DNA from: Cupriavidus necator N-1
GTDB lineage: Bacteria > Pseudomonadota > Gammaproteobacteria > Burkholderiales > Burkholderiaceae
NCBI RefSeq assembly: GCF_000219215.1
Contig: NC_015726.1
Span: 1,798,001-1,862,000 of the forward strand
Direction: 5' to 3'
Length of the DNA: 64,000 nt
The translations under genes and the position numbers were made by a program. Under the pieces are notes generated by a model. That model had not been told where the DNA came from. It was given only the letters and a program-made list of their open reading frames with translations, and made no database searches. Within the stretch, counting starts at the first letter, position 1. Each line of letters starts with the position of its first letter. Of the stretch, positions 30,327 to 55,623 are shown one piece after another.

Positions 30327-30341
30327 CGGGCATCGAAATGC

Positions 30342-30377: not shown

Positions 30378-30463
30378 GGTGTGGATGGATTTGAAGGTGA
30401 GAAAGTGGGGATGAGTATCCCGGGGTAGCGCCTGGCAGCGCCCCCGGAAATTACGCTTCCTGG

Positions 30464-32198: not shown

Positions 32199-32243
32199 TT
32201 GACTTTCGCCTAGTCCAAAAATAGAATGACATTCGTTATTCGA
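32199..32243 (+). promoter_or_regulatory. Sigma70-type promoter and operator of the PyrK/PyrD-like operon
   Basis: TTGACT (32199-32204) and TAGAAT (32222-32227) are 17 bp apart. The perfect palindrome GAATGACATTC (32224-32234) overlaps the -10 box and is followed by GTTATTCGA. Positions 32218-32243 match 22 of 26 at 13393-13418 in front of the Rieske operon, and both have TTGACTTT at the -35 box. The transcript would have a leader of about 150 bases before the ATG at 32388. Confidence 0.6.
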
Positions 32244-32387
32244 TTGCGGTGACGCCATCGATATCGGCAGAGGTAGTTCGCAGTCGCCGAGACGCGCATG
32301 CCTCACGGACTGGTACCCGTAACCCGGTGGACATGGAGGAGGCGCCACCCGCCGAGGACATAGCAACCCCTATATGGAGGAAGTCGG

Positions 32388-33269: not shown

Positions 33270-34201
33270 ATCTCAGTGTGGAAATTGGCTCGCTCAGGTT
33301 GCAGAATCCGGTCATGCCGGCGTCCGGCACCTTTGCCGAAGGCCTGGCCGATGTGTTCGACCTGAACCGGCTTGGCGCCATCGTGACCAAGACGATCACC
33401 GACGACTTGCGGGAAGGCAATCCGCCGCCTCGCGTGGCGGAATTCAAGGACGCGACGTTATTCTCGATCGGTATCCCGAGCAAGGGCGGGGACTACTATC
33501 TGAAGGAGACGGTGCCTTTCTATCGGGCATACCAGCCGCCGCTGATCGCCAGTATCTCGGCAAACACGGTGGAAGAGTTTGGCAGGCTGGCGCGCAAGCT
33601 GTCCGTACCGGGGGTGGCGGCGATCGAGGCCAATGTGTCCTGTCCGAACCTCAAGAAGGACGGGCAGGCCTTCGGCATGGACCCAGATGCGACCTTTCAG
33701 GTGGTTCGCGCCATGAAGGCCGCCTCTGACCTGCCAGTCTGGCCCAAGATGACACCCAATGCGGGCAATGTCGTGGAAGTTGCACTGGCGGCCCAGGCCG
33801 CTGGTGCGGACGCGCTTGTCGTCAGCAATGCCATCCTGGCCATGGCGATCGATGTGGAGACGCGCCGTCCCCGGGTTGCCAACCTAATGGGCGGCCTGAC
33901 GGGGCCGGCCACCAAGCCAATCATGCTGCGTATCGCCTATCAGTGCGCGCAGGCGGTGACGATTCCGGTGATCGGATGCGGCGGCATCACGACAGCGGAG
34001 GACGCCATCGAGTTCCTGCTCGCTGGCGCGACAGCCGTGCAGGTGGGCACGGCCAGCTTCCTCTCTCCGCAAACGATGCCCAACGTCATCGATGGCATCA
34101 TGGCGTACTGCGAGCGCAAGGGGGTCGCCCGGGTGCGTGACCTCATCGGCGCCATGGAGTTGTTCGATGCGCCCGCCATTGCGGCGGGGGCAGGGCACTG
34201 A
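33263..34201 (+). CDS. Class 1B dihydroorotate dehydrogenase-like flavoprotein
   Basis: A 312-aa FMN TIM-barrel protein. Markers are NPVMPASGTFAEG, TKTIT, the catalytic-cysteine motif NVSCPNLKKDG (about residue 128), WPKMTPNAGNV, GLTGPATKPIMLR, GCGGI and GATAVQVGTA. In class 1B enzymes a PyrK partner passes electrons between FMN and NAD. GTG is the start. Here the pair sits with EthD-like and amidohydrolase genes, so it more likely reduces or oxidises a C=C bond next to a ring carbonyl in an N-heterocycle. That is an inference from chemistry and context; an ordinary dihydroorotate role cannot be excluded. Confidence 0.82.
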   Translation: MVDLSVEIGSLRLQNPVMPASGTFAEGLADVFDLNRLGAIVTKTITDDLREGNPPPRVAEFKDATLFSIGIPSKGGDYYLKETVPFYRAYQPPLIASISANTVEEFGRLARKLSVPGVAAIEANVSCPNLKKDGQAFGMDPDATFQVVRAMKAASDLPVWPKMTPNAGNVVEVALAAQAAGADALVVSNAILAMAIDVETRRPRVANLMGGLTGPATKPIMLRIAYQCAQAVTIPVIGCGGITTAEDAIEFLLAGATAVQVGTASFLSPQTMPNVIDGIMAYCERKGVARVRDLIGAMELFDAPAIAAGAGH

Positions 34202-35496: not shown

Positions 35497-36042
35497 ATGG
35501 AACCGAAATTTCAACGCGGGTGGCATCTGGCAAAAACCGACCTGGAGCAGAAGGCCACCGAGTTCGAGTGGGCCTTGATCCGGTTCCATGAATCGTTTTC
35601 CAGGTTCGTGTTGTCCACCGGGATGGTGACGATTGCCGCCGACGTGGATATGAAGTACGAAGAGCACGTCATTCTCCACGTCATCAGGATGCAGGACCGG
35701 CCAAAGAATAGTGCCACCATTGCGCGCCTGATGAACCGCGACGATATCCCGAATATTCAGTACAGCTTGCGCAAGCTGGAAGCGGCCGGTCTGATCGAAA
35801 AGCAGCGAGAAAAGAACAGCAAGACCTTTGCGTACACCGTCAGTGAACTGGGAGTCCGGCTGACGGACGAGTATTACAAGGTCAGGGCCGAGATCCTGGT
35901 GAAGCGGCTGGAGGAAATCAGCGAGGTGTCTGAGAAATTTGAAAGGACATCGCGCTTCCTTTCGCTGCTGACCGGCATCTATGAGGAAGCCGCGCGCGAT
36001 TCGGCGACGATCACACCGTTGCGGGAAGACGGGCAGGAGTGA
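35497..36042 (+). CDS. MarR-type winged-helix transcriptional regulator
   Basis: A 181-aa regulator. The winged helix is at about residues 55-115 (DMKYEEHVILHVIRMQDRPK; NSATIARLMNRDDIPNIQYS; LRKLEAAGLIEKQREKN), flanked by dimerisation helices at both ends. It resembles winged-helix regulators found beside Burkholderiales aromatic-degradation genes. It converges with the amidase operon, whose last gene ends 31 bp away. It may bind the AATCGAAGTT palindrome at 41384-41409 and the related element near 42651. The binding is a hypothesis. Confidence 0.82.
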   Translation: MEPKFQRGWHLAKTDLEQKATEFEWALIRFHESFSRFVLSTGMVTIAADVDMKYEEHVILHVIRMQDRPKNSATIARLMNRDDIPNIQYSLRKLEAAGLIEKQREKNSKTFAYTVSELGVRLTDEYYKVRAEILVKRLEEISEVSEKFERTSRFLSLLTGIYEEAARDSATITPLREDGQE

Positions 36043-36073: not shown

Positions 36074-37495
36074 TCATGCAGCGTCAGCGCGCCTGACGCC
36101 AATCTCCGGGTGATAGCGGTGCCAGTCGGTGGCCTGCTGGAATGCCATGCCGGCACGGCACAGCAGAGCTTCGTCACCATGACGCGCCACCAGCTGGAAT
36201 GCGATTGGCATGCCGTCCGCCGTGAATCCACATGGCAGCGTGATCGCGGGATGCCCGGTGGAGTTGAACGGCGCCGTGAACTGGATCAGCCGGCTGTTCA
36301 GTTCCGGATCTTGCGCCAGCGCACCCAGCTGTTCATGCGTCGGTGCGGCGAAAGGCTGTACCGGGACGACCAGCAGATCGATGTCCTGCATCAGCTTGTT
36401 GACCTTGCCACGGAAGGCAGCACGGTTCAGCAAGGCTTGCTGATAGCGCATGCCGTTGGTAGTGCGACCAATCTCGATCAGCCGGGTCAGCGCTGGCCCA
36501 TATTCCGCCGACAGGCGCGGGAACGTCCCCGCATGCGCCACGGCGACTTCGACGCCGCAGTTGATTTCCCATTCGTCGACCACGGTGCGTACTGCGGGAA
36601 AGCGAACCTCCCGGACCTGCCCGTCAAGCGCCTTGAGCACGTCGATGGCCCGGTCCACGGCCTGGCTGATGACGTCATCCGTCCCATCGCTGTTCCATTG
36701 CACATCGACACCGATGCGCAGACCGCGCAGGTCGCTCCCCTCGGCAGGTAAATCGAGGTGCGAGGGTGGCAGCGAAGTCGGATCCAGCGGGTCGTGGCCG
36801 GCAATGGTCCCTAGCATCAGCGCGGCATCGGCTGCGCTGCGTGCGATCGGACCCACATGATCAAGGCTCGCACCGAGCTCGAATACCCCGTGGCGGCTGA
36901 CCCGGCCCCACGTCGGCTTGATGCCGGTCAGGCCGTTGGCTGCCGCCGGGAAGCGGATCGAGCCGCCGGTGTCCGTGCCGATCGATGCGTAGCAAAGCCC
37001 GGCGGCCGTGGCGACACCGGAGCCGCTGGAAGAGGCGCCGGCCCAGTGGTTGGGGTGCCAGGGATTGACCGGCTCCGGTATGCTCGGGTGATGGGTGGCG
37101 AAGGCGCCTTCGGTCAGCTGCAGCTTGCCCAGCACGATGGCGCCGGCATCCCGCAGCTTGCGCACGACGGTGGCATCTTCCGTCGGGATAAAGTTCTTGT
37201 GAATCGTGGTGCCGGCGGCGGTTGGCGATCCGGCCAGCCAGCAGAGGTCCTTGACCGCCACCGGCACGCCGTGCAGTGCGCCGAGCGGGCCGCCGTGCAT
37301 CAGCGCCCGTTCGGCGTCGCGTGCCTGTTCCAGCGCCTGTTCAGGCAGGACCAGGGCGTAGCTGTGCAGCGCCGGATCGAGGTCGGAGATTCGTTCAAGG
37401 ATGGCTTCGGTAGCTTCTACAGGCGAGATGTCGCGCGCGCGGATCTTGCGTGCAAGCTCCGCGGCTTCCCAGTAGTGGAGGTCTGCGTTCGGCAT
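36074..37495 (-). CDS. Amidase (amidase signature family)
   Basis: A 473-aa amidase-signature enzyme with the complete Ser-cisSer-Lys triad. Lys lies in GVPVAVKDLCW, cis-Ser in GASSSGSGVATAAG and nucleophile Ser in GTDTGGSIRFPAA. The start is taken at the ATG at 37495 (MPNADLHYWEAAELARK); the longer frame overlaps the gene upstream. It is the fourth gene of the minus-strand operon led by the Rieske monooxygenase. It is a natural candidate for hydrolysing a lactam or amide formed from the hydroxylated heterocycle. Such a role is inferred from operon membership; the family is broad. Confidence 0.87.
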   Translation of the reverse strand: MPNADLHYWEAAELARKIRARDISPVEATEAILERISDLDPALHSYALVLPEQALEQARDAERALMHGGPLGALHGVPVAVKDLCWLAGSPTAAGTTIHKNFIPTEDATVVRKLRDAGAIVLGKLQLTEGAFATHHPSIPEPVNPWHPNHWAGASSSGSGVATAAGLCYASIGTDTGGSIRFPAAANGLTGIKPTWGRVSRHGVFELGASLDHVGPIARSAADAALMLGTIAGHDPLDPTSLPPSHLDLPAEGSDLRGLRIGVDVQWNSDGTDDVISQAVDRAIDVLKALDGQVREVRFPAVRTVVDEWEINCGVEVAVAHAGTFPRLSAEYGPALTRLIEIGRTTNGMRYQQALLNRAAFRGKVNKLMQDIDLLVVPVQPFAAPTHEQLGALAQDPELNSRLIQFTAPFNSTGHPAITLPCGFTADGMPIAFQLVARHGDEALLCRAGMAFQQATDWHRYHPEIGVRRADAA

Positions 37496-37527
37496 AAGCA
37501 ATGGGTCGGGAAGTTTGTCGGGAGTCC

Positions 37528-38856
37528 TCAGCGCAAGCCGAGTTCTGCGCGTCTGCGCGTCAGCGTATCGATCACGGCGTACATGATCTTGCGCGCGCAA
37601 GGCAGCAGGTCCGGGACATAGGTGGCACCCATGCCGCCCAGGCCTTCGGCCACGCTTTCGGGCGAACCCTGCGCCGGCCATGGCCAGCCGATGCGTGCGG
37701 TTGGAATGCCGAAGCGGCGCAGCGCTGCGCCGTCGGTCTGTCCGCCCAGCAGCTCGGGAATGCCATGCGGGCGCGCTTCGATATGCTCCCATCCGCGCCT
37801 GGCCGACTGGACGATCCAGTTGGACGGCGCGGTGGTGCCGCCCGGAACGGAGCCATACATCTCCCAGTCCAGATCGAGTTCCGGGTGCCGTGCGCGCAGT
37901 TCCGCGACGAACTGCGCGAACTGGGCCTTGACGTCGGCCGGGCTGGTGCGCGGATTGATGCGGACATCAAAGAAGATCTCTGTGACCGCCGAAGGAAACG
38001 CCGGCCGCTCCGGCCAGCCGGCGCGCACGCCGGCGATCCAGCCGTGCGGCTTGACGACGCCGGAGGTATTGCGGTCCGCATAGTCGACCAGCCACTGCTC
38101 CAGTTCCAGGATGAACTGCGCGGCTGGTACCACCGAGCTGCGAAAGCCGGGGGTGCCGCGCGGAACGCCCGCATAGCCCAGCGTGCCGTTCACCCGCAGT
38201 TTGAACCAGCCCATGCCCGGCTCTTCGTGATAGACCCAGTTCCACGGCTTCATGATGATGGCGAAGTCCGGCGCCACACCGCGGGACAGCAAGTGTGTGA
38301 CGCCCCCTGACATGCCGGCATGGTCCCGTTCGGCGATATCGACGGGCATGCCGCCGTCGGCCGTCGCCAGGATCAGGTCGCCAACCAGCGGAACGCCGGC
38401 CTCGATCAGCGCCGTCGCGACCTCCGTCAGCGTCGCCACCATGGCCTTCGGGTTGGACGAGCCGAGGCCATAGACCCAGTCTCCCACCGTTCTTGCGGCA
38501 GGCTGCAGGTCGACATGGTCGGTGGTGCCTGTCCATGGATGGTCACTGGCATCGCCTTCCAGATGTGTGTCGATCGGTGCGTACAGCATCAGCGCGGCGC
38601 CGCCGCCGCTGCCCCGCTTTTCCCCGACGGCATTGCCCGTACGGGCATTCATCGGGCGGTATGCCGAGCTAAGGCCCACGCTGGACATATAGCCGGCCAT
38701 GAACTGGTTGATGTCGCGCACAGCGCCGGTCGGGCTATGGATGTCCGTCAGGTTGGACAGAAGTTGCTGCAGGCGCCTGGCATCGATCCGGGCGCATGCC
38801 TTTTCGTACCAGTCTTGCTGCTCTGGCGAAAAGGGAAGGGCAATGGTGGGCTCCAC
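37528..38856 (-). CDS. M20/ArgE-like hydrolase-fold protein with altered metal ligands
   Basis: A 442-aa protein of the M20/ArgE/DapE fold whose usual metal-ligand motifs are changed. The GHxD motif appears as YAPIDTH (Pro94, Asp96). The bridging-Asp motif GxGxxDxKG appears as GLGSSNPKA (Asn135). The Glu-Glu pair appears as ATADGGM. The lid-domain histidine is Tyr in LGYAGVPRG. Length and fold features (WFKLRVNGT; EIFFDVRINP; GGQTDGAALRRFGIP) are intact, so it is not simply decayed. It may bind a different metal, act on a ring amide or serve as a non-catalytic partner. It lies 32 bp upstream of the amidase start and 34 bp after the reductase. Confidence 0.82.
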   Translation of the reverse strand: MEPTIALPFSPEQQDWYEKACARIDARRLQQLLSNLTDIHSPTGAVRDINQFMAGYMSSVGLSSAYRPMNARTGNAVGEKRGSGGGAALMLYAPIDTHLEGDASDHPWTGTTDHVDLQPAARTVGDWVYGLGSSNPKAMVATLTEVATALIEAGVPLVGDLILATADGGMPVDIAERDHAGMSGGVTHLLSRGVAPDFAIIMKPWNWVYHEEPGMGWFKLRVNGTLGYAGVPRGTPGFRSSVVPAAQFILELEQWLVDYADRNTSGVVKPHGWIAGVRAGWPERPAFPSAVTEIFFDVRINPRTSPADVKAQFAQFVAELRARHPELDLDWEMYGSVPGGTTAPSNWIVQSARRGWEHIEARPHGIPELLGGQTDGAALRRFGIPTARIGWPWPAQGSPESVAEGLGGMGATYVPDLLPCARKIMYAVIDTLTRRRAELGLR

Positions 38857-38890
38857 GATGGCTGTCTCCCGTGATTCCTGTGGTGATCCG

Positions 38891-39913
38891 CTAGTTCGAC
38901 GGTGCGAACTGCTCGGCGTAAATGTTCTCCGGGCGAACCCCGATCTGGGCGAGACGGTGCGTGGCCGCCTCGATCATCGCGGGAGGGCCGCACAGATAGG
39001 CGACGGTGTCGGCGTGCATGGCATCGTCTTCCCGGATGGCATCGACCGGGTTGCCGCTCAGCAACTCTCCCGTCGCGCCCCGGTCCACCGATATTCGCGC
39101 CGACAGGCCGGGCAGCCATTGCTCGCGCAGCGCGATGTCATCCAGGCAGAACAGCGTATCGGGCGTGGCGCAGCCAAAGCTGAGCATCACGGGCGGCTTG
39201 CGGCCCGACGTGTTGCGGATCGTATCGATCATGGACAGGATCGGCGCCAGGCCGGTCCCGCCCGCCACCATGATGTGCGGCGCCCGCACCTTCTCCCGCA
39301 GGAAGAAGCTGCCATAAGGACCCTCAAGCTCCAGCACGTCGTCGCGCGCGGCGCGATGTTCCAGATAGCCGGACATGACGCCGTCATGCAGCAGGCGGAT
39401 CAGCAGCTCGATCTTCGGCAGCTCGGCAGCGGTGCTGGCAGGCGAATAGCTGCGCACGATGTCGGTGCCGGGAACGCGGACCTGGATGAACTGGCCCGGC
39501 TTGAAGTCGAAGGACTCGCCTTCGGCCAGCTCCAGCGTGAGACGCACGACATTGGGCGCCAGCTTTTCGACGCTGTCGACAAAGGCGTTGACCTTCACAG
39601 CACGCCCGGCGCCGGCATCGCTCTCGTAGTTCAGGTCGAAGGTACAGTCGGTTTCGGGCTCGGTCAGGCACAGCAGGCGCTCGCCCGCCTCGTATTCGCT
39701 GCGCAGCAGCGTCGAGCTGGCGCCGGCGCGCATGCCCGCCTGGCCTTCGGCCAGCCGCGCCGTGCAGCTCGAACAGCTGCCGGAGCGGCACTGGTGGATC
39801 AGCGGCACGCCGGCGGCGAGAGCGGCGTCAAGCACGCTCTCGCCGTGCGGCACGGCAACCGATCGGGTGGTTCCGTCGCGAAAACGCAGTGCGACGTTCT
39901 TGACAGTAGACAT
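38891..39913 (-). CDS. Rieske oxygenase reductase (2Fe-2S, FAD, NAD), OxoR-like
   Basis: A 340-aa single-chain reductase. The N-terminal plant-type 2Fe-2S domain has CRSGSCSSC and a fourth Cys in LLCLTEP. The FAD domain has RSYSPASTA. The NAD domain has MVAGGTGLAPILSM and ends CGPPAMIEAA. Domain order and length resemble the reductase of 2-oxo-1,2-dihydroquinoline 8-monooxygenase and benzoate-dioxygenase-type reductases. It would pass electrons from NADH directly to the Rieske oxygenase, 25 bp upstream in the operon, with no separate ferredoxin. Confidence 0.87.
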   Translation of the reverse strand: MSTVKNVALRFRDGTTRSVAVPHGESVLDAALAAGVPLIHQCRSGSCSSCTARLAEGQAGMRAGASSTLLRSEYEAGERLLCLTEPETDCTFDLNYESDAGAGRAVKVNAFVDSVEKLAPNVVRLTLELAEGESFDFKPGQFIQVRVPGTDIVRSYSPASTAAELPKIELLIRLLHDGVMSGYLEHRAARDDVLELEGPYGSFFLREKVRAPHIMVAGGTGLAPILSMIDTIRNTSGRKPPVMLSFGCATPDTLFCLDDIALREQWLPGLSARISVDRGATGELLSGNPVDAIREDDAMHADTVAYLCGPPAMIEAATHRLAQIGVRPENIYAEQFAPSN

Positions 39914-39938
39914 ACAGATACCTCGGTTGCCGCCTGGA

Positions 39939-41288
39939 TTACTCGTCTTCTTCGATCTTGGTGACGAAGTACGCCGTGGCCTGCTTGCCTTCCGACGCCT
40001 TCTTCAGCCGCATGGCCGACGCCTTGACGGCGCCATCCACGCCACGCCCCGGCTTGGCAATGCCACGGTTCCAGCGCGATGCCAGCTTGCGCCAGGTGAT
40101 CGGGGAAATATCCGTTGCCATCAGCTGCTCGTTATCCCAGCCGGTGCCATCCGCGTAGAAGTCCTGCATCGCTTCGCGCGCATAGAGGTCGCAATCATTG
40201 AAACCGTGCAGGCACAGGGGCTTGTACAGATAGTCGAAGCGGTACTGGTAGTCCTTGCGCTCCTGCTCCGTGTTGCAGACCTTGACCAGGACTTCCCAGT
40301 ATTCATAGGTGTCGTCGGTGATGGGTACATACCACTCGTACTGGACGACATGCTCTTCCGGCCAGTTCTCCACCATCAGGACGCCCGGCAGGACCACGGA
40401 GGTGCGATACGGACGCGCGTTCAGGTTCTCCACCTTGAGGCCGACCTTCTCGTTTTCGAGGATGGGCTTCCACTTGTCGGTGAACAGCCACTGCACCAGC
40501 CCCTTGGGGCCGTTGTCGTCTTCGACTACCGCAATGCAGTCGTCGGCGGTCGGCACGATGCCCAGCGGCAGCACCCAGTCCTTGGCATGGATGATGGCGT
40601 TGTCCTTGTGGACCAGGATGTGCGCATTGTCGAAGCCGTTCTCGCAGGCGATGCGCCAGTTGGCATAGCCGGTACGGTGCATGCCGTGGGCGACGACGTT
40701 TTCATCGAGCAGGCTCGGCGCGGACGGCCACAGCGGGTGCGGGAATTTCTCGCTGTTCTCGGGGAAGCGGAACGGCAGGTCATGCGACAGCGGAGGCACG
40801 TCTTCGTCCGGGTAATCGTCCTCGCGCACGAAGACAAAGATCATGCCGGCGACTTCCCGCACCGGGTAGGTGGTGAGGCCGGTGGTGCCGATCAGCTTGT
40901 CATCGGGGTTGCCGGCGATGGTCGCCAGGTTGCCGCTCTCCAGGTCGAAGGTAAAGCCGTGGTACCAGCAGCTGATGGTGTCCTTGGTAAGGCACATCGG
41001 CTTGGCCGAGAGACGGACGCCGCGGTGAACGCACTGGTCCTTCAGGGCAAAGATCTTGCCGTCCACGCGGCGCAGCACGATCGGAATGCCGCAGATCTGG
41101 ATGCCCTCCACACCGTCCTCCGGGAGTTCCTTGCTGAACAGGGCCGGGTACCAGTGGTTGATAAACCCCCAGGCGGCGTCCTTGTAGGGCTGGTACTGGC
41201 TCTGCACCTTGGCGTCGTTGACGCGTGCGCTGCTGATCTCGTTTTTTGTCTCGCTGCTGCGCCGGCGGATGACGGGCTTGTCGCTCAT
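39939..41288 (-). CDS. Rieske oxygenase resembling 2-oxo-1,2-dihydroquinoline 8-monooxygenase
   Basis: A 449-aa oxygenase. Rieske ligands are Cys86/His88 (QCVHRGVRLS) and Cys107/His110 (SCWYHGFTFDLE). The iron-site histidines are His223 and His227 (GFDNAHILVHKDN), with the three-residue spacing of carbazole dioxygenase CarAa. GFINHWYP, YEWYVPITDDTY, AREAMQDFYADGTGW and WRKLASRWNRGI also match the CarAa/OMO group. Length fits OMO (about 446) better than CarAa (384). It should hydroxylate an N-heteroaromatic lactam. GAGGAGAACCTGAAG precedes the ATG. It heads the operon with reductase, M20-like protein and amidase. Homology is from recalled sequences. Confidence 0.85.
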   Translation of the reverse strand: MSDKPVIRRRSSETKNEISSARVNDAKVQSQYQPYKDAAWGFINHWYPALFSKELPEDGVEGIQICGIPIVLRRVDGKIFALKDQCVHRGVRLSAKPMCLTKDTISCWYHGFTFDLESGNLATIAGNPDDKLIGTTGLTTYPVREVAGMIFVFVREDDYPDEDVPPLSHDLPFRFPENSEKFPHPLWPSAPSLLDENVVAHGMHRTGYANWRIACENGFDNAHILVHKDNAIIHAKDWVLPLGIVPTADDCIAVVEDDNGPKGLVQWLFTDKWKPILENEKVGLKVENLNARPYRTSVVLPGVLMVENWPEEHVVQYEWYVPITDDTYEYWEVLVKVCNTEQERKDYQYRFDYLYKPLCLHGFNDCDLYAREAMQDFYADGTGWDNEQLMATDISPITWRKLASRWNRGIAKPGRGVDGAVKASAMRLKKASEGKQATAYFVTKIEEDE

Positions 41289-41383
41289 CTTCAGGTTCTC
41301 CTCGATATGGGCTTTGTGGGCTGCAACCCTGGTCGTGTGCCAAGGGCGCGATCGAAGATTACCGAAATCTATAATTGACTGTC

Positions 41384-41409
41384 AATCGAAGTTCAATCAA
41401 ACTTCGATT
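41384..41409. promoter_or_regulatory. Operator-like palindrome in the divergent control region
   Basis: AATCGAAGTT (41384-41393) and AACTTCGATT (41400-41409) form a perfect 10-bp inverted repeat around CAATCA. It lies in the 254-bp region between the oxygenase operon (minus) and the porin/mhp operon (plus), in AT-rich sequence, with CAATTGATCGATAAATG directly after. The symmetry fits a dimeric winged-helix regulator such as the MarR-type protein at 35497. Confidence 0.6.
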
Positions 41410-41542
41410 CACAATTGATCGATAAATGATTGATTGTGTAGAGTTAGACGCTCAAAAGCGGTGGATTGGCGCACGCCAAGGGTTAACCCTGATCAAATAC
41501 GCCAGACACCGCCTTCGAAATCAAGAAACGGGGAGACATCCA

Positions 41543-42616
41543 ATGAGGAGACTGAAGGCGATTGCCGCCTGCAGCGTTGGCCTGGCGGGCGCGGCGCATG
41601 CAGAGGGCAGCGTGCAGGCATACGGCATCGTCAATACCGGTGTGATGTATGTGTCCAACCAGGGCGGGAGCAGCAACCTGGTTGCGGATCCGGGAACCCA
41701 GGCGCCAACGCTGTTCGGCTTCAGGGGCACGGAAGAGCTTGGCGGCGGCCTGCAGGCCGTGTTCAAACTGCAGGGCCAGTTTTCCATGAAGAACGGCCAG
41801 TCCATCGGGAACCTGTTCGGGCACGAAAGCTATGTCGGCTTGCGTGACGACAAGCTCGGGACGCTCACGCTCGGGAATCAGATCGACTTCATGTTCTATT
41901 CGCTGGCGCTCGATCACTGGGGCTCGGCGTTTCCGTTCATCAGCTGCATCAGCCTTCGCCAGGGGCCATTCTCGGGGCTGGGCGTGCCCAACACGCCGGG
42001 CGGCTCCTTCGACTTTGACCGGGTTGCGGGCCTTGCCATGCCGAACTCGGTCAAATACCAGAGCCCGGACTTCGGCGGCCTGTCGGTCGGTGCGCAATAC
42101 AGTCTTGGCGGGCAGCCCGGTTCGTTCGGGAACAGCAGTGGCCAGAGTGCCGGCGTGAATTACCACGTCGGCAACCTGCGGCTGAACGGTGCATACACCT
42201 ACGTCAAATATCCGCAGCTGAATGCCGGCAACGATGGCATCAGGAACTTCGGGTTTGGCGGGTCTTATGCAATTGGGCCCGCAGTAGCCGCGCTGATGTA
42301 CACGAATACCGAGAACACCGCGACCGGCGCACGGGTTGCGGTCTACGAGGGCGATGTGACCTGGGCTTTTTCCCCCGCCTGGCACCTGAATGCCGCCTAC
42401 CAGTACATGCGAGGCAATGACACGCTGGACCGGCAGAGCGCCATGCAGGGGACACTGACCCTGCTTTATTCGTTCTCGAAGCGCACCAGCGTCTACGCCG
42501 ATCTTGTCTATCAGAAAGCATCGGGGGCGGGGAAAGCCTGGATCAGCCTGGCGCCGGGGCCTTCGTCCGGCGCCACGCAGGTGGCGGCCAATATTGGCGT
42601 GCTGCATGCGTTCTGA
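41543..42616 (+). CDS. Gram-negative porin (third)
   Basis: A 357-aa outer-membrane porin. The signal peptide is LKAIAACSVGLAGAAHA, the first strand SVQAYGIVNTGVMYV, then GLRDDKLGTLTLGNQ and a C-terminal Phe (NIGVLHAF). GGGGAGACATCCA precedes the ATG at 41543. It is divergent from the oxygenase operon and followed after 87 bp by the MDR reductase gene. It probably admits the heteroaromatic substrate through the outer membrane. Three porins of the same family in 22 kb is typical of large beta-proteobacterial catabolic regions. Confidence 0.88.
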   Translation: MRRLKAIAACSVGLAGAAHAEGSVQAYGIVNTGVMYVSNQGGSSNLVADPGTQAPTLFGFRGTEELGGGLQAVFKLQGQFSMKNGQSIGNLFGHESYVGLRDDKLGTLTLGNQIDFMFYSLALDHWGSAFPFISCISLRQGPFSGLGVPNTPGGSFDFDRVAGLAMPNSVKYQSPDFGGLSVGAQYSLGGQPGSFGNSSGQSAGVNYHVGNLRLNGAYTYVKYPQLNAGNDGIRNFGFGGSYAIGPAVAALMYTNTENTATGARVAVYEGDVTWAFSPAWHLNAAYQYMRGNDTLDRQSAMQGTLTLLYSFSKRTSVYADLVYQKASGAGKAWISLAPGPSSGATQVAANIGVLHAF

Positions 42617-42650
42617 CCCGGCCAAATTTTTTTGACCACATCAGTCGACA

Positions 42651-42680
42651 ATCAATTGATATTCAACTGATAAACATTGG
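42651..42680. promoter_or_regulatory. Second operator-like element before the MDR/mhp genes
   Basis: The palindrome ATCAATTGAT (42651-42660) is followed by ATTCAACTGATAAACATTGG. The elements CAATTGAT and GATAAA also occur in this order at 41412-41425 next to the longer palindrome. Its position 44 bp before the MDR gene suggests a second control point inside the plus-strand operon. Confidence 0.5.
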
Positions 42681-42703
42681 ATAACGTTGGAGGAGATGAA
42701 CGA

Positions 42704-43825
42704 ATGAAGGACCCTCATCAGACCACCATCCAGGCCGCGCGTGTCCATGAACCGGGTGGCCGGTTCCGCCTCGACACGATTGCGCGCCCAGCCTTGCTGC
42801 GCCCCACCGATGTGCTGATCGACGTGAAGGCGGCGGGCGTGGTGCCCAACCTGCGCAACGTGATGAGCAACTACGGCGAACGCGCCTACCTGACCGTACC
42901 GGACCTGCCCGCGATCTACGGCCTGGATACCGCCGGCGTCGTGGCGGAAGTGGGCAGCCAGGTAACCGGCGTGGTCCCCGGCGACCGCGTCTATATCAAC
43001 CCGGGGCGCTCGTGCGGTTCCTGCCATGCGTGCCGGACCGGCGAGCCGATCAATTGCACGGCTTACACCTTCCAGGGCTATTTCGGCTTCGGGCCGGAGT
43101 CGAAGCGGATGTACCAGCAGTATCCATATGGCGGCTTCAGTGAATTCGCCACCGCGCCTGCGGATGGCTTGGTCAAGCTGCCCGACGCGATCACCTTCGA
43201 ACAGGCCGCGCGTTTCGGCTACCTGGGTACGGCGTACTCCGGCCTGCGCAAGGCCGGCGTTGCAGCAGGCCGCACGGTATTGATCAGCGGCGCTACAGGC
43301 ACGCTCGGGCTCGGCGCCGTGCAGATCGCGCGGGCCATGGGCGCTACCCGGATCCTGTGCATGGCGCGCAATGTCGACTTGCTGGAACGCGTCCGCGCGT
43401 TGGACCCGCAGCGTATTCGCATCCTTTCCTATGGCACGCAACCTCTCGCCGACTGGGTTCGCGCCGAGACGGACGGCATTGGCGCCGATGCCTTTGTCGA
43501 TGCCATCGGCCCCGGCGCCTCGCACCAGATCACGCTGGACGGTATCGCGGGCCTCCGGCGTGGCGGCCGCATGGTGGAAATCGGGGCGATGTCGGACCCG
43601 TTGCCCGTCAACCTGCACCAACTGATGTGCGCGCAGGTCAGCCTGGTCGGATCACTCTGGTTCTCGGTGGCCGAAGGCCAGGAACTTGCCGCCATGGCTG
43701 CGGCAGGCACGCTCGACCTCACGGTCTTCGAGCACCAGCGGTTCGGCCTGCACCAGGTCAATGAAGCCCTCGCCACCGCCGAGAAGCGCGCTGGCGGATT
43801 TGTCAACGTGGTTGTCGTGCAATGA
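42704..43825 (+). CDS. MDR-superfamily zinc-type quinone/enone oxidoreductase
   Basis: A 373-aa medium-chain dehydrogenase/reductase. The structural-zinc cysteines are in RSCGSCHACRTGEPINC (about residues 105-120) and the NAD(P)-binding glycine motif is ISGATGTLGLGAVQIAR (about residue 195). The first catalytic-zinc cysteine is not evident (KAAGVVPNLRNV), so it is unlike an alcohol dehydrogenase. It may reduce a C=C bond next to a carbonyl. In a coumarin-type pathway this fits an 8-hydroxycoumarin reductase, which is inference. GGAGGAGATGAACGA precedes the ATG. Confidence 0.83.
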   Translation: MKDPHQTTIQAARVHEPGGRFRLDTIARPALLRPTDVLIDVKAAGVVPNLRNVMSNYGERAYLTVPDLPAIYGLDTAGVVAEVGSQVTGVVPGDRVYINPGRSCGSCHACRTGEPINCTAYTFQGYFGFGPESKRMYQQYPYGGFSEFATAPADGLVKLPDAITFEQAARFGYLGTAYSGLRKAGVAAGRTVLISGATGTLGLGAVQIARAMGATRILCMARNVDLLERVRALDPQRIRILSYGTQPLADWVRAETDGIGADAFVDAIGPGASHQITLDGIAGLRRGGRMVEIGAMSDPLPVNLHQLMCAQVSLVGSLWFSVAEGQELAAMAAAGTLDLTVFEHQRFGLHQVNEALATAEKRAGGFVNVVVVQ

Positions 43826-43862
43826 ACCGGCAACCAATCTTCAACGGATTCAGGAGCAAGCA

Positions 43863-44393
43863 ATGGTAAGACGCATCGTCACCGGCGAGCGCGACGGCCG
43901 TTCCGTGGTTGTCTCGGACGGCCCCGTGTCCACCACCCACGACTATGCCGCGGTCCCCGGCTTCCAGACCACGCTGGCGTGGGCCACGCAGGCTGTACCG
44001 TCGCTGCCGCAGGACGGCACCGATCCGGTCGTGACGGTCAGGTCGGTCACGCCCGACCCGCACGGAACGCGCCTGATCGTCGTGCAGTTCCCGCCCGACA
44101 GCGTGATGGCATCGCCGCAGTTCGATCCCGTGGCGGCAGGCGAGGAATATGCGCGCCACCTGCCCGGGCTGGCTGAAGCCTTCGAGCCGGATGGCTCCGG
44201 CATGCACAAGACCCGGTCGGTCGACTACGACATCATCGTTTCGGGTGAGCTCTGGCTGGAAGTGGATGGCGGGGAAACCCGTCACCTCAAGGCGGGCGAT
44301 ATCGTCATCCAGAACGGCACGCGGCACGCCTGGCGCAACCGCAGCGAGCAGCCAGCCGTCATGGTGGCGGTGCTGATTGGGGCCGACAGGTAA
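43863..44393 (+). CDS. Cupin domain protein in the mhp operon
   Basis: A 176-aa cupin. A variable N-terminal half precedes a barrel with HKTRSVDYDIIVSGELWLEV (about residues 116-135) and LKAGDIVIQNGTRHAWRN. The motif-2 histidine is present in GTRHAW. Motif 1 is altered, with His116 and Asp rather than a paired HxH. AGGAGCAAGCA precedes the ATG at 43863. It may stabilise or isomerise a ring-cleavage intermediate; no reaction is evident. It is followed by a hairpin and then the hemerythrin gene. Confidence 0.8.
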   Translation: MVRRIVTGERDGRSVVVSDGPVSTTHDYAAVPGFQTTLAWATQAVPSLPQDGTDPVVTVRSVTPDPHGTRLIVVQFPPDSVMASPQFDPVAAGEEYARHLPGLAEAFEPDGSGMHKTRSVDYDIIVSGELWLEVDGGETRHLKAGDIVIQNGTRHAWRNRSEQPAVMVAVLIGADR

Positions 44394-44421
44394 AGGGGTA
44401 AAGGCTGAAGCAGCTCACGTT

Positions 44422-44451
44422 GGGATCGGTGGCGCCAGTGCCACCGATCCC
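44422..44451 (+). terminator. Intra-operon hairpin between cupin and hemerythrin genes
   Basis: A perfect 12-bp stem, GGGATCGGTGGC (44422-44433) and GCCACCGATCCC (44440-44451), with loop GCCAGT. There is no T-run. In the middle of the operon it could attenuate transcription or protect the upstream mRNA, giving less hemerythrin/mhp product than porin/MDR/cupin. Confidence 0.6.
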
Positions 44452-44500
44452 AGGCCGCGGCATATTGGTGCCGCTGGCGAGCTTGCCGGGAGGGTTTGCA

Positions 44501-45010
44501 ATGAAAGATACATCGGATATCGGCACGCCGCCGCCCACCGCGGACGAGTGCCTGGAACTCGCATGGACGGATGCCATGCTGGTGGGCCATGGGCCGATCG
44601 ACGCGGAGCACCAGGAGTTCGTTGAGGTGGTGAACGCACTGGCCCACTGCTCGGCGGACACGGCGGCAGCGTGCCTGCAGGACCTGGAGGCGCATGTGCA
44701 TTCGCATTTCGCCGTCGAGAAGGCGTGGATGGAGAAGACGGATTTCCCAGCCGCCGATTGCCATATCGACGAGCACGAGCGTGTCATCGACGCCGTGCAG
44801 AAAGTCAACGCCAGGCTGCTGCTCGGCGAACTCGGGCTGCAGGACCTCAGGCGGCTCGCCAAGGCGCTGGCGGACTGGTTTCCCGCGCACGCAGCCTATA
44901 TGGATTCGGCGTTGTCCGCCTGGATCAACAAGAAGACCTACGGTGGTGCACCGGTCGTGCTCCGGCGCGATCTCCACGTAGACCAGCGTCACGCCGAGGC
45001 GGGAGCATAA
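44501..45010 (+). CDS. Bacteriohemerythrin-like O2-binding protein
   Basis: A 169-aa hemerythrin-domain protein. The di-iron ligand pattern is visible: VGHGPIDAEHQEFVEVVN, HVHSHFAVEKAWMEK and CHIDEHERVIDAVQ, with the last ligands near WFPAHAAYMDSAL. CGGGAGGGTTTGCA precedes the ATG at 44501. The next gene, mhpB, starts 2 bp after its stop. Hemerythrins store or sense O2. Placement directly before an O2-using extradiol dioxygenase suggests oxygen delivery or sensing for the pathway. This is inference. Confidence 0.82.
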   Translation: MKDTSDIGTPPPTADECLELAWTDAMLVGHGPIDAEHQEFVEVVNALAHCSADTAAACLQDLEAHVHSHFAVEKAWMEKTDFPAADCHIDEHERVIDAVQKVNARLLLGELGLQDLRRLAKALADWFPAHAAYMDSALSAWINKKTYGGAPVVLRRDLHVDQRHAEAGA

Positions 45011-45012
45011 GC

Positions 45013-45954
45013 ATGCCACTTCACCTTGAATGCCTCTCGCACACCCCGCTGCACGGCTATTTCGACCCGGCGCCGGAGATCCTTGCTGAAGTCGAGCGTG
45101 TGCAGGCCGCCGCCCGTGCCCGCGTCGAAGCCTTCGATCCCGAGCTGGTGATTGCCTTCGTGCCGGACCATTACAACGGCTTCTTCTACGACCTCATGCC
45201 GCAGTTCTGTGTCGGCGTGGCCGCCAGCGCGGTAGGCGACTTCAAGAGCCTGGCTGGCCCGCTGTCGGTCCCGTCCGATACGGCGCTGGCACTGGCGCAG
45301 GCGGCGCTGGATGCTGATGTGGACGTGGCGGTCTCGTACCGCATGCAGGTCGACCATGGCTGCGCGCAGGCGTTGGAAGTACTGACCGGCAGCCTCGATC
45401 GCTATCCGGTGGTTCCGGTATTCATCAACTCGGTGGCTCCGCCGATGGCGAGCTGCCGGCGCGCCCGGTTGCTGGGCGATGCCATCGGCCGCTTTGCCGG
45501 GCGTCTCGGCAAGCGCGTACTGGTGGTGGGATCGGGCGGCATTTCGCATGAGCCGCCCGTGCCGGAAATTGCCACGGCCACGCCGGAGAACGTCGAGCGG
45601 CTGATTGCCGGACGCCATCCCAGCCCGGAATCGCGTGCCGCGCGGCAGGCCCGCACGTTTGCCGCCGCGCAGGCGTTTGCCGCTGGCGAGAGCCACCTGC
45701 ACGCGCTCAATCCCGAATGGGACCGCGCTTTCCTCGACACGCTGGAGAGCGGGAACCTCACGGCCGTGGATGGCATGACCAACCACGCGATCACCCGCGA
45801 TGGCGGCAAGTCCGGCCACGAGATCCGGACCTGGATCGCCGCCTTTGCCGCGCTGGCGGCACACGGATCGTACCGGGCCGAACGCGACTACTACCGGGCC
45901 ATTCCCGAATGGATTGCCGGCTTTGCCGTCATGCACGCACGGCCGGCCGCCTGA
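45013..45954 (+). CDS. mhpB: 2,3-dihydroxyphenylpropionate 1,2-dioxygenase (class III extradiol)
   Basis: A 313-aa class III (LigB-type) extradiol dioxygenase of MhpB length. Histidine-rich sites include [13 protein letters not shown] at the start, [19 protein letters not shown] (about residue 50) and [16 protein letters not shown] (about residue 105). [14 protein letters not shown] is also typical. It cleaves the catechol ring of 2,3-dihydroxyphenylpropionate next to the hydroxyls (meta cleavage). The genes mhpD, F, E and C follow, which supports the substrate. The start is ATG at 45013, two bases after the hemerythrin stop. Confidence 0.9.
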
Positions 45955-45983
45955 GGCCAAACCTGATTAGCAAGGACACTGAC

Positions 45984-46775
45984 ATGACCATCCCACAAAC
46001 CGTGCTCGCGCTCGCCGAACGCCTGCGCCGGGCCGAAGAGAGCCGCACTCCGGTCGCACCGCTGCGCGCGGAGATTGCCGCTGACGACGTCGCCACGGCT
46101 TATGCCGTGCAAAGCGCCAACGTCGAGGCCTGGCGCGCGCAGGGCCGCCGCGTGGTCGGCCGCAAGATCGGGCTGACCTCGCTCGCGGTCCAGCGCCAGC
46201 TCGGCGTGGACCAGCCTGACTTTGGCACCTTGTTCGCCGACATGGTCTACGGCGACGACGAACCCATCCCCACTGCGCGCACGCTGCAGCCCAAGGTCGA
46301 GGCTGAAGTGGCGCTGGTGCTCAAGCGCGACATCACCGCTCACGATGCCACTGTGGTGGACCTGATCAATGCGGTCGACTACGTGCTGCCGGCCATCGAA
46401 GTGGTGGGCAGCCGTATCGAAAATTGGAACATCTCCTTTGTCGACACGGTCGCTGACAACGCTTCCAGCGGCCTCGTGGTGCTGGGCGCGGTGCCGGTGC
46501 CGCTGTCCGGCCTGGATCTGAAAGGCGTGCAGATGGAGATGTTCCGGGGCGAGCAGCGCGTCTCGGCCGGCAAGGGCGCCGATTGCCTGGGGCATCCCCT
46601 GAATGCCGCGGTGTGGCTGGCCCGCACGCTGGCATCGCTGGGCGATCCGCTGCGCGCCGGCGATCTCGTCCTGACTGGTGCGCTCGGGCCGATGGTGGCC
46701 GTTGAACCCGGCCAGTGCTACGAAGCGCGTATCAGTGGTATAGGCAGCGTCCGTGCGACGTTCGCCGCAGAATGA
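45984..46775 (+). CDS. mhpD: 2-keto-4-pentenoate hydratase
   Basis: A 263-aa hydratase of the fumarylacetoacetate-hydrolase fold. Landmarks are [30 protein letters not shown], the metal-binding [13 protein letters not shown] and [13 protein letters not shown]. It adds water to 2-hydroxypenta-2,4-dienoate to give 4-hydroxy-2-oxovalerate. It lies 29 bp after mhpB and before mhpF. Gene order here is B-D-F-E-C rather than the B-C-D-F-E of E. coli. Confidence 0.92.
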
Positions 46776-46788
46776 AAGAGAGAACGAC

Positions 46789-47757
46789 ATGACTTCCAGG
46801 AAACTCAAGGCAGCGATCATTGGCTCGGGCAATATCGGAACCGACCTGATGATCAAGATCCTGCGCCACGGCAGGCATCTGGAGATAGCGGCAATGGTCG
46901 GCATCGATCCGGCCTCCGACGGACTGGCCCGCGCCGCGCGCCTGGGCGTCGCTACCACGCACGAAGGCGCCGAAGGGCTGATCCGCCTGCCGGTCTTCGA
47001 TGATATCGACTTTGTGTTCGATGCCACCTCCGCCGGCGCGCATGTGAAGAACGATGCGCTGCTGCGCGAGCGCAAGCCTGGCCTGCGCATGATCGATCTG
47101 ACGCCCGCCGCGATCGGGCCGTATTGCGTGCCGGTGGTCAACCTCGATGCGCATCTGGAGGCGTCCAACGTCAACATGGTCACCTGCGGCGGCCAGGCCA
47201 CGATCCCCATCGTGGCCGCGGTCTCGCGCGTGGCGAAGGTCCACTACGCGGAGATCGTCGCGTCGATCAGCAGCAAGTCCGCCGGCCCGGGCACACGCGC
47301 AAACATCGATGAGTTCACCGAGACTACCTCCAAAGCGATCGAAACCGTTGGCGGTGCCGCCCGGGGCAAGGCCATCATCGTGCTGAATCCCGCCGAGCCG
47401 CCGCTGATGATGCGGGACACGGTGTACACGCTGTCGGAACTCGCCGACCGCGACAAGATTGAGGCATCCATCGAAGAGATGGTGCGCGCGGTCCATGCCT
47501 ATGTGCCCGGCTACCGTCTCAAGCAGACCGTGCAGTTCGACGAGATTCCGGCCAGCGCACCGCTGAACATTGCTGGCCTGGGCCGTTTCAGCGGCCTGAA
47601 GACTTCGGCCTTTATCGAAGTGGAAGGCGCCGCCCATTACCTGCCTGCCTACGCCGGCAACCTCGACATCATGACTTCCGCCGCCCTGGCGACCGCCGAA
47701 CGGATGGCGCAATCGCTGCTGAGCGCCAAAGAGACCACCGCAGGAGCCCTCGCATGA
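46789..47757 (+). CDS. mhpF: Acetaldehyde dehydrogenase (acylating)
   Basis: A 322-aa enzyme. The NAD-binding motif [16 protein letters not shown] is near the N-terminus, the catalytic cysteine in [12 protein letters not shown] (about residue 128), and [12 protein letters not shown] and [16 protein letters not shown] further on. It converts acetaldehyde released by MhpE to acetyl-CoA and normally forms a channelling complex with it. The mhpE ATG overlaps its stop codon (ATGA), consistent with a stoichiometric complex. Confidence 0.94.
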
Positions 47758-48788
47758 GCACCCCGAGCAAGAAACTCTATATCTCCGACGTAACGCTGCG
47801 CGATGGCAGTCATGCGGTCCGCCACCAGTATTCGATCCAGAACGTCCAGGACATCGCGCGCGCGCTGGACCGCGCCAGGGTCGACAGCATCGAAGTCGCG
47901 CATGGAGATGGCCTGCAAGGGTCTAGCTTCAACTACGGCTTCGGTGCGCACAGCGATCTCGAATGGATCGCCGCCGTCGCCGAGGTGGTGGAGCACGCGA
48001 AGATTGCCACGCTCCTGCTGCCCGGTATCGGTACCATGCACGACCTGAGGGCCGCCTACGATGCCGGCGCGCGCGTGGTCCGCGTCGCCACGCACTGCAC
48101 CGAGGCCGACATCTCGAAGCAGCACATCGAGTATGCGCGCGAACTCGGCATGGACACGGTCGGCTTCCTGATGATGAGCCACATGACCACGCCGGAGAAT
48201 CTCGCCGTCGAGGCGAAGAGAATGGAAAGCTACGGCGCGACCTGCATCTACGTGGTCGACTCCGGCGGCGCGCTGACGATGAACGATGTGCGCGCGCGCT
48301 TCCGTGCGCTCAAGGACGTGCTGAACGCGGACACGCAGACCGGGATGCATGCGCACCACAACCTGTCGCTCGGCGTCGCCAACTCGATCGTAGCCGTCGA
48401 GGAGGGCTGCGATCGCATCGACGCATCGCTGGCCGGCATGGGGGCCGGGGCGGGCAATGCGCCGCTGGAGGTATTCATCGCCGCGGCAGAACGCCTCGGC
48501 TGGAACCATGGCACCGACCTGTACGCGCTGATGGACGCGGCCGACGACATCGTGCGCCCGCTCCAGGACCGCCCGGTGCGCGTGGACCGCGAAACACTCG
48601 CGCTTGGCTATGCCGGTGTCTATTCGAGCTTCCTGCGTCACTCTGAAGTGGCGGCGAAGAAGTATGGCCTGAAGACGGTCGACATCCTTGTCGAGCTGGG
48701 CCGGCGCCGCATGGTTGGCGGCCAGGAGGACATGATCGTCGATGTTGCGCTGGACCTCAGCAAGCGCGCGTCCGAAGCGCGGCAGTGA
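47754..48788 (+). CDS. mhpE: 4-hydroxy-2-oxovalerate aldolase
   Basis: A 344-aa class II aldolase of the HMGL-like TIM-barrel family. Landmarks are [15 protein letters not shown] (metal and catalytic residues), the GDGLQGSS loop, [14 protein letters not shown] with metal-binding histidines, and the C-terminal communication domain ([16 protein letters not shown]). It splits 4-hydroxy-2-oxovalerate into pyruvate and acetaldehyde. It overlaps mhpF by four bases. Confidence 0.94.
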
Positions 48789-48804
48789 CAAGAAGGAACA
48801 CCAC

Positions 48805-49674
48805 ATGAATGCGACAGCACAGGCTATCACGGAAGCCTCGACGAGCCGGTTCGTCTCCGTGCAGGACGGAGAGACCACTTTCCGGATTCACTACAACGAT
48901 GCCGGGTCGGGGACCGAGACCGTCGTCATGCTGCATGGCTCGGGGCCAGGTGCAAGTGGCTGGGCCAACTTCAGCCGCAATGTCGAGCCACTGGTGGCGG
49001 CAGGCTACCGCGTGCTGCTGGTGGATTGTCCGGGGTGGAGCAAGAGCGATCCCGTGATCAGCACCGGTTCGCGCTCGGAGCTCAACGGCAGGGTGCTCAA
49101 GGCCGTGCTGGATGCCCTGGCGATCGAGCGGGTGCATATCATCGGCAATTCAATGGGCGGCCATAGCGCCGTTGCCTTTGCGCTGGCCAATCCGCGGCGC
49201 ATCGGCAAGCTCGTCCTGATGGGCGGAGGCACCGGCGGCCCGAGCCAGTTCGTGCCGATGCCGACTGAGGGCATCAAGTTGCTGAACGGCCTCTATCGTG
49301 AGCCGACCATCGAAAACTTGAGGCGGATGATGAGCGTCTTCGTCTATGACGCGAGCGCACTCACGGAAGAACTGATGCAGGCCCGCCTGGACAATATGCT
49401 GGCGCGGTGCGATCACCTTGAGAACTTCGTCAAGAGCCTGGCGGCGAATCCCAGGCAGTTCACGGACTACGGTTCGCGTCTGGGCGAGATTGCCGCGCCA
49501 ACACTTGTCGTCTGGGGCCGGGACGACCGCTTCGTGCCGATGGATGTGGGTCTGCGCCTGCTCGCTGGTATTCCGGATGCGCGGATGCATATCTTCAACC
49601 GGTGCGGGCATTGGGCGCAATGGGAGCATGCCGAGGCATTCAACCGGATGGTGGTTGATTTCCTCGCCCATTGA
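48805..49674 (+). CDS. mhpC: Alpha/beta hydrolase, MhpC-type C-C bond hydrolase
   Basis: A 289-aa hydrolase with oxyanion-loop [17 protein letters not shown], nucleophile Ser in [12 protein letters not shown], Asp in [11 protein letters not shown] and His in [13 protein letters not shown]. These are the hallmarks of meta-cleavage-product hydrolases (MhpC, BphD). It would cut the MhpB product, 2-hydroxy-6-oxonona-2,4-dienedioate, into 2-hydroxypentadienoate and succinate. It follows mhpE after 16 bp and ends the main run of mhp genes. Confidence 0.92.
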
Positions 49675-49833: not shown

Positions 49834-50577
49834 ATGCTGATGAAGGGAAAGGTCGGCCTGGTGACCGGCGGTGGCTCAGGCATGGGGCGGGCGGCTGCGC
49901 TGGCGCTGGCGCGTGAAGGCGCGCATGTCGTGCTGGCGGGCCGCTCCGAGGAAAGGCTCGCCGCCGTACGCGACGAGATCCTCAGGAACGCGGGACAGGC
50001 TGAAATCAGGATCACCGACGCATCGCGTCGCGAAGACAATGAACAGCTCGTAGCGTTTATCGAATCCCGCTTCGGGCGATTGGACTTCGCCTTCAACAAC
50101 GCCGGTGGCCATGCCGATTTCAAGCCCATCGACCAGACTTCGGTAGATGAATCGGAGTGGGTGATTGACCTGAACTTCAAGGGCGTTTATTACGGCGTCA
50201 AGTACCAGGTCGAAGCAATGCTACGCCACGGCGGTGGCGCCATCGTCAACAACGCTTCGATTTTTGGGCTACGCGGGATGAACGGAATCGCCCATTACGT
50301 GGCGAGCAAGCACGCGGTTGTCGGTCTCACAAAGGCCGTCGCAAAGGAGTATGCCGGCCAGGGTATCCGCATCAACGCGGTGTGCCCAGGTGCGACGCAG
50401 ACGCCAAACTACATGCGCTCGACCAATGGCGATGTGCATCTGCTTGACGACATGATTCCGATGAAGCGGATCGGTCAGCCGGAGGAAGTTGCCGAAGCCG
50501 TTTTGTGGCTGCTCTCGGACAAGGCAGCCTATGTCACGGGTGCAACATTGTCGGTGGATGGCGGCATGACTAGCTGA
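49834..50577 (+). CDS. Short-chain dehydrogenase/reductase
   Basis: A 247-aa classical SDR. The cofactor motif GLVTGGGSGMGRAAAL is at the N-terminus, with NNAGG, catalytic Ser in VNNASIFGLRG, Tyr/Lys in YVASK, and a C-terminal GATLSVDGGMTS. The Arg after the first strand (LAGRSEERL) allows NADP. It lies 159 bp after mhpC and may be read with the operon or separately (GGAGGCGAAC precedes the start). It could oxidise a dihydrodiol or reduce a ketone in the same pathway; the substrate is unknown. Confidence 0.87.
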   Translation: MLMKGKVGLVTGGGSGMGRAAALALAREGAHVVLAGRSEERLAAVRDEILRNAGQAEIRITDASRREDNEQLVAFIESRFGRLDFAFNNAGGHADFKPIDQTSVDESEWVIDLNFKGVYYGVKYQVEAMLRHGGGAIVNNASIFGLRGMNGIAHYVASKHAVVGLTKAVAKEYAGQGIRINAVCPGATQTPNYMRSTNGDVHLLDDMIPMKRIGQPEEVAEAVLWLLSDKAAYVTGATLSVDGGMTS

Positions 50578-55541: not shown

Positions 55542-55579
55542 GCTTTCTCCCCTTGTAAGATCGCATGCCTCACTCTATA

Positions 55580-55600: not shown

Positions 55601-55623
55601 CCGTTATCCAAAAGAGGAGACAC

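Follow-up and report, generated by a model that had tools for sequence, protein, structure and literature searches.

A candidate 2-quinolone degradation locus in Cupriavidus necator N-1, with an amidase and an M20-fold protein of altered metal site proposed for nitrogen removal

Which enzymes remove the ring nitrogen during bacterial quinoline breakdown is the question raised by a gene cluster of Cupriavidus necator N-1. The 8-hydroxycoumarin route of this breakdown has had its intermediates known for decades. The cluster lies in a 64-kb stretch of DNA analysed here as a whole (the window), which corresponds to positions 1798001-1862000 of its contig in an 8.48 Mb, four-contig genome. One paper describes a conversion of 2,8-dihydroxyquinoline that yields 8-hydroxycoumarin and sets ammonium free (PMC9029321), and a 2025 paper assigns the step to a '2,8-dihydroxyquinoline dioxygenase' (PMC11945285); no gene was demonstrated for ring-nitrogen removal in the literature searched, which did not take in most subscription journals.

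The locus probably encodes growth on 2-quinolone (2-oxo-1,2-dihydroquinoline) through this route, combining the oxygenase OxoO and its reductase, nitrogen removal by an amidase and an M20-like protein, an MDR-family reductase, the Mhp enzymes, and control by a winged-helix regulator. OxoO and the reductase would hydroxylate 2-quinolone at C8, after which the amidase and the M20-like protein together would convert 8-hydroxy-2-quinolone to 2,3-dihydroxycinnamate or 8-hydroxycoumarin and ammonia. The MDR enzyme would then reduce the C3-C4 bond to yield 2,3-dihydroxyphenylpropionate, a compound that MhpB, C, D, E and F would degrade. The identity of OxoO, the gene association and the loss of metal-site residues from the M20-like protein are supported by sequence comparison; the substrate, the order of reactions, the MDR step and the regulation are what we infer. 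An initial annotation had named the genes of both operons, all of which were recovered in place through open reading frames (ORFs), Pfam and NCBIfam, and what the comparisons support beyond it is the linkage of OxoO with the M20-like protein and the amidase, the association with MhpB, and the lost M20 metal site. Singling out two genes that track OxoO across proteobacteria makes the question of nitrogen removal testable.

The genes run on the minus strand in the order oxygenase, reductase, M20-like protein and amidase, and a divergent set on the plus strand comprises porin, MDR, cupin, hemerythrin and mhpB-D-F-E-C. The minus-strand genes are as follows.

39939..41288, minus strand: OxoO, predicted 2-oxo-1,2-dihydroquinoline 8-monooxygenase (OMO) oxygenase component, 449 aa (PF00355, PF11723; identity to OMO)
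38891..39913, minus strand: OxoR-like 2Fe-2S/FAD/NAD reductase, 340 aa (Pfam Fer2, FAD_binding_6, NAD_binding_1)
37528..38856, minus strand: M20-fold protein, 442 aa, candidate C-N hydrolase for nitrogen removal (nearest NaaA, without the metal site)
36074..37495, minus strand: hydrolase of the amidase signature family, with the lactam or a derived primary amide as its proposed target (PF01425, 369 bits with the longer ORF)

Comparison with solved structures places the window oxygenase beside OMO of Pseudomonas putida 86 (1z01), to which it aligns at 867 bits (residues 1-448 on 1-445) with 77.9% identity over 448 columns and nearly equal length. The next-best solved class, the carbazole oxygenases, reaches at most 309 bits. 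Across 84 sequences and the window protein, the Rieske ligands C86/H88 and C107/H110, the HxxxH pair H223/H227 and Asp367, a putative third iron ligand, are at least 99% conserved. The nearest named relatives belong to Cupriavidus strains (L001-L003, 95-99% identical), and the OxoO proteins encoded at five Pseudomonas loci (L062, L035, L022, L037, L036) share about 90% identity with OMO. All five hold the amidase, and three (L062, L022, L037) hold the reductase and the M20 gene in the fetched stretch; in the L035 and L036 genomes the M20 gene lies elsewhere, outside that stretch. Because these loci carry the partner genes, the enzyme of known function falls within the partner-carrying clade. 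The comparison supports assignment of the window oxygenase to the OMO type, with 8-hydroxylation of 2-quinolone as its predicted reaction. The initial label 'OMO/CarAa type' thus keeps its first half, along with the 449-aa length and the Rieske and HxxxH motifs, and loses its second: a CarAa-type oxygenase is rejected on the two scores, and among solved oxygenases none that acts on a different class of ring came closer.

The partner genes recur with OxoO well beyond this genome. The fetched stretches around the best 80 of 133 OxoO relatives in genome contigs contain the reductase in 72 cases, the M20-like gene in 68 (four as cut fragments) and the amidase in 69, and the 50 loci with about 10 kb on each side contain them in 48, 47 and 49 cases, respectively. 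A search of 17 genomes included the 12 whose stretch lacks M20: ten hold the gene elsewhere, which brings loci with an orthologue to 78 of 80, and the remaining two, both short contigs of metagenome-assembled genomes (MAGs), gave no M20 match in the MAG. The M20 gene is immediately preceded by the reductase gene in 52 of the 68 loci among L001-L080 that hold both, and in all 13 such loci from the 17-genome M20 search; in 11 of these 13, the stretch contains no OxoO. Sphingomonad-type loci have the order oxygenase, reductase, VOC dioxygenase, amidase-like gene and M20; their amidases were assigned by similarity to the window amidase rather than by Pfam, within single-linkage gene families that are rough. 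The four genes recur jointly in loci labelled alpha-, beta- and gammaproteobacteria, and on these counts their joint recurrence is not chance. Mirror-tree correlations (Spearman 0.65-0.85) are uncorrected for shared phylogeny and were not used as support.

Sampling by genome gives a similar picture. Among 349 genomes of the window's family, OxoO (at least 76% identity) is present in 12 and M20 (at least 67%) in exactly those 12, which span four genera (Fisher 1.8e-22, a value inflated by kinship). Nine further genomes with only a 38-39% OxoO relative are all without M20. The sample was searched for OxoO, M20 and MhpB, with 4 to 6 candidates scored per genome. In a class-level sample of 274 genomes, OxoO and M20 occur together at high identity in the window's own genome only, and one other genome combines a 46% oxygenase with a 29% M20 on separate contigs. 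Searching a plasmid collection returned a single match, on a Cupriavidus necator megaplasmid without annotation under the match. The evidence supports the amidase and the M20-like protein as near-constant partners of OxoO. Two points weigh against this conclusion: the linkage was seen among the 80 most similar of the 133 relatives, and the amidase, at least 49% identical in 51 of the 69 loci that hold it, is only 28-40% identical in the other 18.

Some loci carry additional genes. In seven (L014, L015, L030, L032, L034, L038, L050), OxoO is accompanied by a flavoprotein of the styrene-monooxygenase type and an outer membrane protein of the FadL/TodX type. Many of L016-L080 have a VOC extradiol dioxygenase, a protein of the Asp/Glu racemase family, another amidase-like gene and transport-type genes (MMPL, DUF1302, DUF1329), none of which stands beside the window's operon.

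The M20-like protein has no Pfam match at E 1e-3, and its six M20-type NCBIfam matches all fall far under cut-off. By both sequence and fold, its nearest solved relative is NaaA (5-nitroanthranilate aminohydrolase, 5k8m-5k8p), an aryl C-N hydrolase; the fold-search lists are dominated by M20 proteins, and the absence of other folds from them carries no meaning. The His, Glu, Glu and His positions compared, which we take to be the metal site from DapE and CPG2, are all four replaced in the M20-like protein. Whereas NaaA has the His of HxD, the Glu of GEI and the Glu of AEATN, window-type proteins have Pro94, Gly169 and Lys203, residues found in 211 of 211 alignment rows (198 distinct sequences); position 413 is Tyr or Phe in all 209 rows with a residue there. 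This comparison excludes the window's two other M20 genes, which aligned poorly. On these replacements, a simple reading of the protein as an ordinary zinc or manganese hydrolase was rejected. So invariant a loss in so strictly associated a protein is surprising, and it bears on enzymatic aromatic C-N hydrolysis.

With the metal-site residues lost, the M20-like protein probably uses acid-base catalysis or a re-sited metal. We tentatively propose, at somewhat short of an even chance, that it is a metal-independent or re-sited-metal enzyme derived from an NaaA-like metal aminohydrolase, and that its substrate is 8-hydroxy-2-quinolone or the ring-opened form, whose aromatic C-N bond it cleaves by hydrolysis. 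It and the amidase would then account for how the coumarin route removes nitrogen, and the M20 fold would be put to a catalytic use new to it. Elsewhere, two loci (L120, L121) have NaaA-like M20 genes about 28-31% identical with intact metal-site residues, each adjoining a gene whose product resembles, by eye, fumarylacetoacetate hydrolases. The two proteins are possible further aryl aminohydrolases.

The amidase retains K83, S156/S157 and S180 in 62 rows of at least 45% identity (numbering of ORF 36074-37498), presumably the Ser-cisSer-Lys triad of the amidase signature family. Because it and the M20-like protein nearly always accompany OxoO, the two are natural candidates for nitrogen removal. 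In the preferred order, the M20-like protein would exchange the ring nitrogen at C8a for water, as NaaA does with an aryl amine, and the amidase would then hydrolyse the resulting 2,3-dihydroxycinnamamide. This order is preferred on chemical reasoning, since nitrogen in the amide leaves more readily and opening of the aromatic 2-quinolone lactam is unfavourable. The reverse is a real possibility, if one that we would not bet on: the amidase would open the lactam of 8-hydroxy-2-quinolone to 2-amino-3-hydroxycinnamate, whose aryl amine the M20-like protein would hydrolyse. It would suit the free aryl amine with ortho-carboxylate on which, to our knowledge, NaaA acts, and the aryl acylamidase among the solved relatives of the amidase; the same kind of chemical reasoning speaks against it, given the great stability of an aromatic lactam and the tendency of cis-2-aminocinnamates to close again, which mean that opening would need the pull of the next step.

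A point against the proposed nitrogen removal is that the lost residues speak against a canonical metal hydrolase and that NaaA-type catalysis is not simply transferable; the M20-like protein could be non-catalytic. Its role would then be to bind to, or act as a partner for, the amidase or the reductase, and nitrogen would be removed by the amidase with spontaneous chemistry, or by another enzyme. The replacement of all four metal-site positions fits this explanation, as does the position of the M20 gene directly after the reductase gene in most loci, yet we regard it as unlikely. Numerous polar and Trp residues, which may or may not line the pocket, vary little or not at all across the 211 rows, a protein without its metal site may still be a catalyst, and we know of no amidase-signature enzyme with hydrolytic aryl deamination activity.

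The downstream part of the proposed route, from reduction of the C3-C4 bond onward, is assigned to the divergent set.

41543..42616, plus strand: porin, for uptake (PF13609)
42704..43825, plus strand: MDR-family reductase, proposed to reduce the C=C bond of 8-hydroxycoumarin or dihydroxycinnamate (Pfam)
43863..44393, plus strand: cupin protein (PF07883)
44501..45010, plus strand: hemerythrin-like accessory protein (TIGR02481, above cut-off)
45013..45954, plus strand: MhpB, 2,3-dihydroxyphenylpropionate 1,2-dioxygenase (NF009908, 564.5 bits, cut-off 467)
45984..46775, plus strand: MhpD, 2-keto-4-pentenoate hydratase (NF008461, above cut-off)
46789..47757, plus strand: MhpF, acetaldehyde dehydrogenase (PF09290)
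47754..48788, plus strand: MhpE, 4-hydroxy-2-oxovalerate aldolase (PF00682, PF07836)
48742..49674, plus strand: MhpC-like C-C hydrolase of the alpha/beta hydrolase type, true start probably further in (PF00561)
49834..50577, plus strand: SDR oxidoreductase, after mhpC (PF13561)

The last of these, on the same strand, is to be added to the genes first annotated there, which otherwise stand. MhpB is the sole match in the genome. In the 349 family genomes it is found (E <= 1e-60) in 81, namely in 12 of 12 with OxoO against 69 of 337 others (Fisher 1.3e-8, likewise kinship-inflated). It lies within about 12 kb of OxoO on the same contig in eight of the 12 (G000, G237, G278, G303, G051, G065, G160, G271) and on another contig in four. 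Of 44 additional OxoO genomes, from groups without a measured baseline, 35 contain a relative of MhpB (E <= 1e-40, down to 47% identity). The tie to 2,3-dihydroxyphenylpropionate and MhpB that had been drawn initially is strengthened by these counts. Weighing against it, MhpB is missing from nine of the 44, of which five are sphingomonads, three are other MAGs and one is an isolate of Oceanobacter; in eight of these nine a VOC extradiol dioxygenase is encoded close to OxoO, as it is at many other OxoO loci, so that other downstream routes exist. Taken together, the distribution supports 2,3-dihydroxyphenylpropionate as the usual product, with a variable downstream part. The MDR gene has a homologue in 43 of the 80 OxoO loci and the cupin gene in 42, all of them with MDR.

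Expression may be governed from the divergent promoter region, and a regulator gene beside the amidase is to be added to the locus as first described.

35497..36042, plus strand: winged-helix (MarR-like) protein, 181 aa, candidate operon regulator (HTH_27 match)
41373..41387, no strand: palindrome AATTGAC[A/T]GTCAATT, candidate operator, overlapping the -35 box
41380..41413, no strand: 14-nt inverted repeat, 93% complementary with a 6-nt loop, in the divergent promoter region

The palindrome overlaps the oxoO -35 box in all 14 upstream regions examined (the window and L001-L013), where its best match has 0-3 mismatches; these are the same loci from which the pattern was derived, and in the window it is the only site at up to 3 mismatches. 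Five of the 14 regions were measured for spacing, and the -10 element TAATCT follows 18 nt on in the window and 17 nt on in four relatives. The regulator matches PF13463 HTH_27 at 51.7 bits (cut-off 22.2) and Pfam MarR PF01047 at 21.3 bits, under the cut-off of 24.6. Its homologue adjoins the amidase in all of L001-L013. The winged-helix regulator probably acts at the palindrome.

How the pathway is entered bears on its substrate. The genome has 14 MoCoBD_1 matches. Of three that were set against solved structures, the first resembles CO dehydrogenase, another xanthine dehydrogenase, and the best (L085) has quinoline 2-oxidoreductase as its top match (1t3q_B), at 474 bits, too low for a clear orthologue. 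The locus had been called complete, which applies only from 2-quinolone onward; in the search suggested beyond the window for QorMSL-type genes, the quinoline entry step was not identified with confidence. No close QorL was recognised among the three proteins, a point against the proposed route, and the growth substrate may therefore be 2-quinolone itself. The same result would also suit a cluster that acts, with the same logic, on another N-heterocyclic lactam, such as a substituted 2-quinolone, a natural quinolone or a related bicyclic lactam. The presence of OxoO genes in many genera and the varying downstream gene sets point the same way, but the full-length identity to OMO and the constant presence of MhpB in the 12 OxoO genomes fit an unsubstituted 2,3-dihydroxyphenylpropionate product, and we hold such a substrate to be improbable. 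Hardly any credence can be given to a CarAa-type (carbazole-like) dioxygenase pathway; it shares the Pfam family PF11723 with this locus, but the bit scores above and the absence of M20 from the nine genomes with only distant oxygenase relatives argue against it.

Other features of the window stand apart from the locus. A second Rieske oxygenase alpha subunit is encoded at 13436-14731 (plus strand), close to a ferredoxin-reductase-type flavoprotein (15961-17196). Pfam-recognised M20 genes at 25379-26875 (plus) and 30464-31888 (minus) are accompanied by a porin, and a DHODB-type/dihydroorotate-dehydrogenase-type pair lies at 32388-34201; the region 25379-34201 is probably a separate catabolic cluster. 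Beside the locus are genes for a PLP (pyridoxal phosphate)-dependent decarboxylase (50654-52324, minus), a sulfatase (55369-57147, plus) and an aldehyde dehydrogenase (57158-58660, plus). Rfam and tRNA scans of the window were without result.

Set against known systems, the locus is in part familiar. OMO of P. putida 86 (oxoO/oxoR) has its counterpart in the window's operon, likewise with a flavin/2Fe-2S reductase. In Pseudomonas-type OxoO loci an AraC-type gene precedes oxoO, whereas the window has a winged-helix regulator adjoining the amidase. The Mhp pathway is represented by all five enzymes (mhpB-C-D-E-F) on one strand, MhpB and MhpD above NCBIfam equivalog cut-offs, and here stands beside oxo genes; as initially reported, the divergent operon has no mhpA (the search for this gene went no further than the operon). 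For the reductive step, one paper names XenA as reducing 8-hydroxycoumarin in quinoline degradation (PMC5519977), and another describes the MDR-type HcdE as reducing several coumarins without using quinolin-2(1H)-one (PMC7913881). XenA of P. putida 86, the known 8-hydroxycoumarin reductase, is an OYE and not an MDR protein; this difference, and the failure of HcdE to use the quinolone, count against the proposed MDR step. The genome holds 20 PF00724 (OYE) matches, 18 above 170 bits. Because HcdE reduces coumarins but not quinolin-2(1H)-one, it sets a precedent for placing an MDR reductase later than nitrogen removal and not earlier. HcdE of P. mandelii 7HK4 is of the MDR type like the window enzyme, a likeness of reaction rather than of compared sequences, and both it and XenA reduce the C3-C4 bond of hydroxycoumarins, the reaction proposed for the MDR enzyme of this locus.

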